From an uncultured Alphaproteobacteria bacterium (GTDB lineage Bacteria > Pseudomonadota > Alphaproteobacteria > Rhodobacterales > Rhodobacteraceae), in assembly GCA_902567635.1 (NCBI GenBank), contig CACFNV010000009.1, forward strand, positions 1 through 43,468: a stretch of 43,468 bases of DNA. Direction: 5' to 3'. The notes under the pieces are model-generated. The model did not search any database, was not told the origin of the DNA, and saw nothing but the letters and a program-made list of their open reading frames with translations. Both the position numbers and the translations under genes were made by a program. Below, piece after piece: positions 16,100 through 22,164 of this stretch (position 1 is its first letter; every line of letters starts with the position of its first letter).

Positions 16100-16186
16100 T
16101 GGTGCCCGCTGCCGGACTTGAACCGGCACGACTGTTAAGTCGAGGGATTTTAAGTCCCTTGTGTCTACCAATTCCACCAAGCGGGC
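16100..16186 (-). tRNA. tRNA-Leu (anticodon UAA)
   Basis: On the minus strand an 87-nt tRNA runs from GCCCGCTTGGTGG to AGCGGGCACCA. Acceptor arms GCCCGCT/AGCGGGC pair fully. The anticodon stem GGGAC...TCCC surrounds CTTAAAA with anticodon TAA. A long variable arm (CTCGACTTAACAGTCG) marks a class II tRNA, and the T-arm holds GGTTCAAGTCC. The 3' CCA is encoded (16100-16102). It reads UUA codons (and UUG by wobble), frequent in AT-rich genes. Confidence 0.97.
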
Positions 16187-18620: not shown

Positions 18621-18696
18621 AGGGGTTTAGCTCAGTTGGTAGAGCATCGGTCTCCAAAACCGAGGGTCGTGGGTTCGAGTCCCTCAGCCCCTGCCA
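18621..18696 (+). tRNA. tRNA-Trp (anticodon CCA)
   Basis: A 76-nt tRNA with encoded 3' CCA. The acceptor AGGGGTT pairs with AGCCCCT (one G-U pair). The D-arm is GCTCAGTTGGTAGAGC. The anticodon stem TCGGT/ACCGA encloses CTCCAAA with anticodon CCA, and the T-arm contains GGTTCGAGTCC. tRNA-Trp immediately before secE-nusG is a widely conserved bacterial arrangement. Confidence 0.97.
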
Positions 18697-20127: not shown

Positions 20128-20820
20128 ATGGGTAAAGTTGGAAAAAAATATACCAAATCTAAAGAAAATTTTGGAGAGTTGGCTCATGTTAGTTTAGATG
20201 AAGCTGTAGAACTAGTTAAAAATAATGCCTCCGCTAAGTTTGATGAGACGATTGATATAGCAATAAACCTCGGGGTAGATCCAAAACATGCTGACCAGAT
20301 GGTGAGAGGCGTGTGCTCTCTTCCTCATGGAAATGGAAAAAGTGTAAGAGTGGCTGTTTTTGCAAAGGGAGAAAAAGCTGATGAAGCAAAAAAAGCAGGA
20401 GCCGATTTAGTTGGAGCAGAAGATCTTATGGAAATTGTTCAGTCTGGAAAAATTGAATTTGACCGATGTATAGCAACACCGGATATGATGCCGATAGTTG
20501 GAAGATTGGGAAAAGTTTTAGGTCCAAGGAATCTTATGCCTAATCCAAAGGTGGGTACGGTGACCATTGAGTTGGAGAAAGCGATTTCTTTGGCTAAGTC
20601 CGGCGAGGTACAATTCAAAGTTGAGAAATCTGGAGTAGTTCAAGTAGGGCTTGGAAAAGTATCATTTGACAAACAAAAAATAACAGAAAATATTAGTGCA
20701 TTCGTCGAATCAGTCAATAAGGCAAAACCATCAGGAGCAAAGGGTTCATACTTGAAGAGAATTTCCATAAGCTCAACAATGGGGCCAAGTATTACCATTG
20801 ACAATGGGCAATTTGGTTAA
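20128..20820 (+). CDS. rplA: 50S ribosomal protein L1
   Basis: Forms the mobile L1 stalk at the tRNA exit site and in several bacteria represses translation of its own L11-L1 operon by binding mRNA. The 230-residue protein has the usual [15 protein letters not shown] start, the conserved [15 protein letters not shown] and [12 protein letters not shown] blocks, and the signature [20 protein letters not shown]. It ends in [14 protein letters not shown] 255-nt gap follows before rplJ and holds the proposed L10 leader. Confidence 0.97.
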
Positions 20821-20863
20821 AAGAATTTATTGCAGGATTGGAAGGATTGTAAAGTAGAAATTT

Positions 20864-21075
20864 AGGTCAGAAAACCTTTTAATATTTTGACCTAGTCTGA
20901 GACGGTGGGTTTTTTTAAGTAAATCCTGCCTGAGACAGGTAGTTTAAGGCAGAAGAGTTCTGTGCTGGATAGGCGGCCTACCTGTTTAACTGAGAGAAAA
21001 TGCTTTCTAGCAATTTCTCTTTCCGCAACGGGATTAAAATCTCGTTTACGTAAAATTAGTATTGGAGTTGGATAG
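20864..21075 (+). promoter_or_regulatory. Structured rplJ leader (candidate L10 autoregulatory leader)
   Basis: Four stems can be drawn in the 255-nt rplA-rplJ gap. AGGTC...AAAA pairs with TTTTGACCT (about 20864-20892, small bulge). ACAGGTAG (20935-20942) pairs with CTACCTGT (20978-20985), an 8-bp perfect stem extendable by two pairs. AGAGAAA-A-TGC pairs with GCA-A-TTTCTCT (20993-21020; one A-A mismatch, 6-nt loop). AACGGGAT pairs with ATCTCGTT (21027-21046; one G-U, loop TAAA). In bacteria the L10-(L12)n complex binds a leader in this position to repress rplJL translation. The position and structure fit that role, but similarity to the Rfam model was not tested. Confidence 0.6.
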
Positions 21076-21082
21076 TTGGATA
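21067..21082 (+). repeat. Tandem 8-mer GTTGGATA x2 at the rplJ start
   Basis: GTTGGATA occurs twice head to tail (21067-21074 and 21075-21082). Each copy holds a TTG. Only the second (21076) is in frame with L10 and lies eight nt after GGAG (21064-21067), so it decides the start. The first TTG abuts the GGAG and opens a different frame. Confidence 0.8.
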
Positions 21083-21588
21083 GGAAAAGAAAAGAGCAAG
21101 TGGTCGGTGAACTAAAGGAAGTTTTCGAGACTTCTGGTATAATAGTTGCCGCTAGATATTCAGGTATCACAGTGGCAGAGATGTCTGATCTTAGAAATAA
21201 GATGAGAGAGCAAAATGCTTCGGTGAGAGTTGCAAAGAATAGGCTTGCGAGGATAGCAATAGATGGATCTCCAGCTGAGGGAATGAAAGATCTTTTAGTA
21301 GAACAGATAGTTCTTTTATACTCAGAGGATCCAGTTACTGCTGCAAAGATTTCTGTCGACTTCGCCAAAAAGAATGAAAACCTGAGAATTGTTGGCGGTG
21401 CAATGGGAAGTAAAGCTCTTGATTCCAATGGAATAATTGAAGTTTCAAAAATGCCCTCGAGAGATGAGATATTGTCTACTATTAGCTCTATTTTGACAAG
21501 TCCGGGTAGCTCACTAAGTTCACAATTAGGTGGACCGGCTTCAAATATATCGAGCGTATTAGCGGGTATAGAGGAGAATAGGCAGTGA
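21076..21588 (+). CDS. rplJ: 50S ribosomal protein L10
   Basis: Base of the L12 stalk that recruits translation factors; with L12 it usually represses its own operon. The 170-residue product starts DRKRKEQVVGELKEVFETSG, matching the alphaproteobacterial MDR..KE.V..EL start. RVAKNRLARIAIDG and the C-terminal helix that binds L12 dimers (residues about 140-170) are present. Initiation is at TTG 21076; no in-frame ATG gives this N-terminus. A TTG start together with a structured leader fits translational control. rplL follows after 45 nt. Confidence 0.95.
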   Translation: MDRKRKEQVVGELKEVFETSGIIVAARYSGITVAEMSDLRNKMREQNASVRVAKNRLARIAIDGSPAEGMKDLLVEQIVLLYSEDPVTAAKISVDFAKKNENLRIVGGAMGSKALDSNGIIEVSKMPSRDEILSTISSILTSPGSSLSSQLGGPASNISSVLAGIEENRQ

Positions 21589-22026: not shown

Positions 22027-22072
22027 CGTTCCAAACTTTCTATCTTTAAATTGGTTCAATCTCTTTTCGGGA

Positions 22073-22089
22073 GTGCTTTGGGAAGGCAC
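22073..22089 (+). promoter_or_regulatory. Hairpin in the rplL-rpoB gap (candidate attenuator or processing site)
   Basis: GTGCTTT-GGG-AAGGCAC forms a 7-bp stem (one G-U pair) with a 3-nt loop in the 138-nt gap before rpoB. No T-run follows, so it is not a full terminator. In E. coli this gap holds an attenuator and an RNase III site; an equivalent role here is inferred from position only. Confidence 0.4.
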
Positions 22090-22164
22090 AAGAATTGAAA
22101 GAGCTTGGGGCTTATTACGTCTGATATCCCATGCAGAGAAAACAGAATTTTATTAGAGGATGGC

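Follow-up and report, generated by a model that had tools for sequence, protein, structure and literature searches.

The stretch of DNA analyzed here (the window; 43,468 nt) belongs to an assembly of 1.5 Mb that is 58% complete. Its gene sequences, together with the Rhodo-rpoB RNA in family loci, point to an alphaproteobacterial source, probably of the Rhodobacteraceae. The gene order on its + strand is nusG-rplK-rplA-(gap)-rplJ-rplL-rpoB-rpoC; the products of rplA, rplJ, and rplL (i.e., L1, L10, and L12) were assigned with Pfam, and the identities of nusG, rplK, rpoB, and rpoC were read off the ORF translations. The rplA-rplJ gap measures exactly the 255 nt reported in a preliminary description of this DNA (20821 to 21075), with the rplA stop codon ending at 20820 and the TTG start codon of rplJ at 21076. 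The sequence, the ORFs, and the Pfam assignments confirm that the gap lies at the leader position of the rplJ-rplL mRNA. All 15 leaders of the genus (i.e., those of the window and 14 genus mates) have TTG as the rplJ start codon, whereas E. coli rplJ starts with ATG, and all 15 keep the sequence TTGGAGT at the Shine-Dalgarno (SD) site. A promoter-like TTGACA-17-AAGAAT (a consensus match only) is present at 20798 to 20826, at the very end of rplA. Two tRNA genes were also noted, one for tRNA-Trp 5' of nusG (18621 to 18696, + strand) and one for tRNA-Leu (16100 to 16186, - strand). The features of the gap and its flanking genes are as follows.

20128-20820, +, rplA (ribosomal protein L1), the gene 5' of the gap; ORF, Pfam PF00687, E = 2.1e-66
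20862-20895, +, upstream hairpin H0, 11 bp (20862-20872 with 20885-20895); fold of the window and genus covariation
20891-20942, +, putative L10(L12)4 recognition hairpin (kink-turn core); family model R1
20895-20903, +, kink-turn 5' side: C-stem GUC (20895-20897), 3-nt loop UGA (20898-20900), GA (20901-20902), C (20903); sequence, with counterparts in relatives
20904-20909, +, 5' arm GGUGGG of P2 (NC-stem), pairing with 20925-20930; compensatory changes in family and class
20920-20922, +, unpaired UAA on the 3' side above P2, 2 nt 5' of the P2 3' arm; sequence
20925-20930, +, 3' arm CCUGCC of P2 (NC-stem), pairing with 20904-20909; compensatory changes in family and class
20931-20936, +, kink-turn 3' side: U (20931), GA (20932-20933), C-stem GAC (20934-20936); sequence, with counterparts in relatives
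20935-20942, +, P3 5' arm ACAGGUAG; 8/8 pairs kept in 14/14 genus mates and the window
20978-20985, +, P3 3' arm CUACCUGU; 8/8 pairs kept in 14/14 genus mates and the window
20981-20991, +, segment CCUGUUUAACU, forming an 11-bp pairing with the rplJ start region (21074-21084) that excludes P3; minimum free energy (MFE) fold of the window
20992-21021, +, hairpin H4 (20992-20999/21014-21021 and 21001-21004/21009-21012); fold of the window
21027-21046, +, pre-SD hairpin AACGGGA/UCUCGUU; pair probability 0.71 to 0.93
21064-21067, +, SD sequence GGAG of rplJ
21076-21588, +, rplJ (L10), TTG start; Pfam PF00466, E = 8.6e-26

The main element of the gap is the hairpin at 20891 to 20942. The preliminary description listed four stems, of which the two that it located (20935-20942/20978-20985 and 21027-21046) are present and the other two were given without coordinates; its list did not name the kink-turn, the 6-bp stem, or the UAA. 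The core (20895 to 20936) reads GUC UGA GA C (GGUGGG) UUUUUUUAAG UAA AU (CCUGCC) U GA GAC, with the two P2 arms in parentheses. As a sequence pattern, UGA GA C facing U GA (20898-20903 and 20931-20933) corresponds to the tandem G.A pairs that adjoin the NC-stem of a kink-turn. Most leaders share the general motif GUC-NNN-GA-C-(P2 5' arm)-loop-UAA-NN(N)-(P2 3' arm)-NGA or UA-GAC, and the 3' side of the kink-turn is UA, not GA, in many leaders of the class and in E. coli. The C-stem has 3 contiguous pairs in 14 of the 15 genus leaders (4 in one mate), compared with 5 or 6 pairs in the 32 family leaders that were modelled (counting stopped at 6). On visual inspection, the genus leaders have a weak inner hairpin above P2.

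L10(L12)4 is reported to recognize a kink-turn together with an unpaired UAA in 23S rRNA and in the leader alike (PMC4538822); the kink-turn is also described as a binding determinant in PMC10931766, and in Geobacillus and Bacillus the UAA matters for binding by L10 (PMC4538822). The E. coli rplJL leader resembles that of the window in its kink-turn hairpin, 6-bp stem, UAA, second helix at the place of P3, and distance from the core to the rplJ start (177 nt, versus 176 nt in the window). It differs in having UA for GA on the kink-turn 3' side, a C-stem of 5 bp, and a well-formed inner hairpin. The rplJL leader of Bacillus subtilis and Geobacillus (RF00557) likewise combines a kink-turn and UAA hairpin with a mutually exclusive downstream helix (PMC4538822), but an intrinsic terminator closes the leader in Bacillus, whereas no terminator was found in the leader of the window and RF00557 does not match it.

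For comparison, 101 genomes (the source genome included) were searched for rplJ. The gene was placed in 88 of them, and leaders were drawn from 86 of these (i.e., without G011 and G077). Together with E. coli and 11 distant loci, the whole yield of a scan of genome contigs, they make up 98 rplJ loci. Cores were accepted in 84 of the 98 (genus, 15/15; family, 33/36; class, 31/35; gamma, 5/5). The loci left out were L033 to L039 (not Proteobacteria; another register or a core unclear to the finder), L061, L063, L089, and L093 (core unconvincing), and L070, L071, and L099 (no finder output). Since the core finder demands at least five of the six P2 pairs, its percentages of paired cells (including those for the class) and the choice of rows in alignment A3 (31 of the 36 family loci) are selected for pairing. 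The unselected evidence for P2 comes from alignment A1 (30 of the 36 family loci), which was cut without reference to P2, its 3' ends being set by the word GGAC.

RNAalifold applied to the 30 leaders of A1 found P2 unprompted: of the 180 cells of P2, 178 are paired, and two of its pairs show two-sided changes. The RNAalifold consensus consists of the C-stem and P2, and the outer pair and P3 are absent from it. In the 31 family cores, 99.5% of P2 cells are paired and three of the six pairs show two-sided changes, while 97.3% of C-stem cells are paired and the C-stem changes are all one-sided. When the partners were slid in these cores, pairing fell to 49 to 62%; slides of +1 and +2 also gave 2 and 3 two-sided pairs, at 54 to 59% pairing, and the number of pair types in this P2/C-stem test was not unusual (193 of 500 shuffles were as high). 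Among class and gamma leaders, in which the finder selected for pairing, P2 is replaced more widely, for example by CACUGG/CCAGUG, UGCAAG/CUUGCA, UGCAGG/CCUGCA, and CGCAGG/CCUGCG. P2 hardly varies within the genus and is thus uninformative for covariation. There, H0 provides the signal: when the 14 genus mates are aligned to it, 5 of its 11 pairs have two-sided changes and 92.2% of the cells are paired. When H0 and P3 were tested jointly in the 14 mates, 95.5% of cells were paired, compared with at most 48.7% after sliding, a -3 slide also having 4 two-sided pairs. Invariant columns in the 14 mates amount to 68% within the core (columns 67 to 122) versus 32% outside the core and P3. The covariation that the preliminary description proposed to look for is thus present, in P2 across the family and in H0 within the genus, and at the sequence level the compensatory changes support the P2 stem of a putative L10 hairpin. 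It is this comparative evidence of conservation, rather than any single stem, that makes the leader more than chance pairing.

A covariance model of 59 positions (R1) was trained on the 31 family cores with the genus of the window excluded. R1 scored the window at 36.9 bits (E = 6e-8), and its match at 20891 to 20942 was the only one at E values up to 10 in the 1.5-Mb source assembly. All 14 genus mates were matched (19.8 to 32.0 bits), as were 32 of 51 other loci at E values up to 1; the loci missed at that threshold were 6 of other phyla, E. coli (default filters), 3 of the family, and 9 of the class. With filters off, the E. coli leader ranked first in its locus, scoring 19.4 bits (E = 1.6e-4) against 5.9 bits for the runner-up. 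Among 115 genomes of the class (the source genome included), R1 matched 23 at E values up to 0.01 with strict filters, and 22 of the 23 matches lie 47 to 224 nt upstream of the rplJ match, the remaining one (G092) being on another contig. The 92 genomes of the 115 without a match under these settings reflect at least the limited reach of R1. As a model for the class, R1 is of use in that 22 of its 23 matches fall at rplJ.

The Rfam model for this RNA gave a different outcome. A match to L10_leader, suggested earlier as a check, was not obtained: RF00557 (gathering score, 44 bits) had no match in the whole window or the gap at E values up to 10, and none of the 101 genomes (the source genome included) exceeded the cutoff. 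Its two weak hits in the source genome lie away from the gap (E = 0.93 and 1.39), and the 18 matches in the 101 genomes (E up to 0.5, strict filters; best, 41.5 bits) include none at an rplJ place. In a control with 8 loci, RF00557 matched four, i.e., three from Firmicutes (L033 to L035) and one from Slackia (L036), and did not match L039 or three loci from Pseudoalteromonas. The E. coli K-12 rplJ leader was also unmatched at E values up to 10; the search control reported one weak match to E. coli at E values up to 10, its place not stated. Since the E. coli leader is also missed, the failed match is weak evidence against a proteobacterial L10 leader. The preliminary description would have given up a leader lacking both covariation and an L10_leader match; the match is lacking and covariation is present, and the Rfam half of that pair is not diagnostic. 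RF00557 sites numbering 108 have been reported for a set of 255 genomes that takes in alphaproteobacterial orders (PMC3766115). Our literature search found no description of an L10 leader in Alphaproteobacteria; most subscription papers lay outside its scope, and we claim no absence.

Another Rfam entry, RF02858 (Arrc08, "Actinobacillus sRNA 08"), gives weak alignments with two rplJ leaders, that of E. coli (L100, 1538 to 1805; 38.2 bits, E = 1.2e-7) and that of a family relative (L045, 729 to 966; 26.0 bits, E = 0.0028), both far below its gathering score of 219 bits, and has no match in the gap of the window at E values up to 10. On these alignments, Arrc08 may represent an rplJ leader that was entered as an sRNA under another name.

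The 8-bp pair noted earlier, which we call P3, is indeed perfect (20935-20942 with 20978-20985), and both arms are kept in all 15 genus leaders. Across the 14 mates, P3 is paired in 112 of 112 cells, and seven of its eight pairs are invariant; in the family, only the inner pairs are clear. As stand-alone evidence, the pair was rejected: of 1,000 dinucleotide shuffles of the gap, 238 contain at least one perfect 8-bp inverted repeat with a loop no longer than about 60 nt. P3 overlaps the C-stem of the kink-turn at 20935 and 20936, and because these two nucleotides are shared, P3 and the C-stem cannot fully coexist. A second helix sharing the 3' arm of the kink-turn is present in 15/15 genus leaders (as P3) and in E. 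coli, where it reads ACGGUGA/UCACCGU and differs from the P3 of the window on both sides. This overlap, common to the genus and E. coli, makes the transmission of a signal from a distant site to the start codon testable by paired mutations.

In the MFE fold of the window, the segment at 20981 to 20991 pairs with the rplJ start region instead. The energy of this duplex (20981-20991/21074-21084) is -13.6 kcal/mol, and about 1% of 200 shuffles were as good with either control. None of the 14 genus mates has such a duplex beyond shuffles, and one among 15 genus leaders examined is not very surprising. In 36 other leaders, L026, L040, and L041 reached 4% by one of the two shuffle controls and none passed both; the choice of P3 is often doubtful outside the genus, which makes this a poor test there. 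Start-codon sequestration is therefore unsupported as a genus-wide mechanism. For the lineage of the window, a three-state translational switch can be drawn, in which L10(L12)4 would lock the kink-turn stem, P3 would break, and 20981-20991 would then pair over the rplJ start at 21074-21084 and shut translation. We regard this switch as distinctly unlikely. If true, it would explain, in a single lineage, how a repressor sitting about 150 nt upstream acts on the start and would be a translational counterpart of the Bacillus attenuator.

The stem at 21027 to 21046 had been placed just before the start and proposed to control start access. The hairpin exists, but its placement was loosely worded, since 17 nt separate its end from GGAG and 29 nt separate it from the start codon, and the proposed control of start access is not supported. 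It neither contains nor touches the SD sequence (21064-21067) or the start, and its sequence is not conserved in the genus, though another hairpin fills its place by eye; neither the folding models nor the genus alignment gave evidence linking it to L10 binding. Forcing the kink-turn conformer changed the accessibility of the ribosome binding site (RBS) in no consistent direction: among 15 genus leaders it fell in 2 and rose in 2, and among 32 family leaders it fell in 5 and rose in 10. The leader as a whole (20821 to 21100) folds mildly better than shuffles (z = -2.0; 7 of 200 as good). Single-sequence folding of the window assigns low probabilities to P2 (0.03 to 0.05) and P3 (about 0.1), and the MFE structure, which favors other pairings over both, was rejected as evidence for stems.

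In leaders of the class (e.g., L066, L075, L080, and L085), the 5' arm of the C-stem, CCUGUCC, can also pair perfectly with a downstream segment, GGACAGG. Of 31 class leaders, 13 form at least 6 Watson-Crick pairs with this distal partner (4 were too short to test), and 12 stand at 5% of shuffles or fewer. In the family, 1 of 33 leaders has at least 6 pairs and none is beyond shuffles; in the genus, the count is 0 of 15, the longest pairing being 5 (L011), and the distal partner was rejected as part of the anatomy of the window. On sequence grounds, it suggests an alternative fold in class leaders, which the genus of the window lacks.

Taken together, the gap very probably encodes an rplJL mRNA leader to which L10(L12)4 binds, thereby repressing the operon that encodes it. 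Support for an L10-(L12)n binding leader, which the preliminary description expected here, comes from the hairpin with its kink-turn and UAA, from the covariation, and from model R1. The leader is an ordinary but divergent copy of the known L10 autoregulatory kind, single-copy in the assembly, in a lineage where RF00557 gave no hit at rplJ. Binding and autogenous repression would follow by analogy with E. coli and Bacillus. Repression by L10(L12)4 through the leader is established in E. coli (PMC4538822, PMC10931766); it acts on translation, and closing of the SD site has been proposed, not firmly established (PMC4538822). A 2024 review describes the transmission step in E. coli as unresolved, the site being far from the RBS (PMC10931766). 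In B. subtilis, L10(L12)4 stabilizes an anti-antiterminator, and termination is promoted (PMC4538822). The L10 leader has been named as a case of a single binding site with differing outputs (PMC4647458).

For the window, translational control would be the better guess because of the E. coli-like distance (176 versus 177 nt), the lack of a terminator-like site, and the overlap between P3 and the C-stem. In the mechanism that we propose, L10(L12)4 would grip the hairpin at 20891 to 20942 through its kink-turn, P2, and unpaired UAA, and binding would stabilize the lower kink-turn stem (20895-20897/20934-20936). The stabilized C-stem would open or shorten P3 (20935-20942/20978-20985) through the two shared nucleotides, and the refolding of the downstream leader would lower rplJ translation once L10(L12)4 exceeds free 23S rRNA.

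The same L10 target could instead act by transcription attenuation, the output used by Bacillus (PMC4538822), with a terminator located after the kink-turn and before rplJ. The three-part logic would be unchanged, the kink-turn stem excluding P3, and the 14 genus mates offer a candidate: at the place of H4, each has by eye a shorter hairpin with a GNRA-type loop followed by six U. This near-invariant AAAGGA-loop-UCCUUU (e.g., L006, columns 175 to 193 of alignment A5) lies between P3 and rplJ, runs into a U tract ending about 50 nt before rplJ, and looks terminator-like, but it contains only two G-C pairs, and an unsystematic look found no pairing that would make it conditional. The family leader L049 also has, by eye, a hairpin followed by UUUUGUUU, yet it is the exception among the family leaders inspected, the others having no such U run. 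The window itself has a longer, unrelated-looking hairpin at this place (20992 to 21021), which is followed by UCCGC rather than a U run, and the terminator scan found no intrinsic-terminator-like site on the + strand of 20600 to 21200. Attenuation in place of translational control is thus unlikely.

That the leader has decayed is less probable still. In such a case, the ancestral target would be kept in sequence, and the 3-bp C-stem and weak inner hairpin would no longer bind L10 usefully in the genus. The shortening of the C-stem in 14 of the 15 genus leaders, relative to the 5 or 6 pairs of the 32 family leaders, points this way, as does the missing distal partner of its 5' arm (0/15 genus leaders versus 13/31 class leaders with at least 6 pairs). 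Against this, the proportion of invariant columns in the 14 mates is higher in the core (68%) than outside the core and P3 (32%), UAA, GA/GA, and P2 are intact, and Firmicutes leaders above the Rfam threshold (L033 and L035) by eye also have short C-stems; we consider decay very unlikely. The remaining reading, in which the pairings arose by chance in an AT-rich gap and have no regulatory role, is extremely improbable. The frequency of the 8-bp inverted repeat in shuffles (238/1,000) and the z score of only -2.0 speak for it, but the single R1 match in the assembly, the placement of 22 of 23 class matches upstream of rplJ, and the compensatory changes in P2 and H0 speak against it; for the kink-turn hairpin, these comparative data already refute chance pairing.

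A subthreshold match to Rhodo-rpoB RNA (RF03074; 26.7 bits) was observed in the rplL-rpoB gap of the window at 22064 to 22137 (L003, 2489 to 2562). The same model matches two of nine genus loci at 33.6 bits (equal to its gathering score) and 29.1 bits and three family loci at 43.5 to 73.9 bits, and the match in the window is likely a divergent member.
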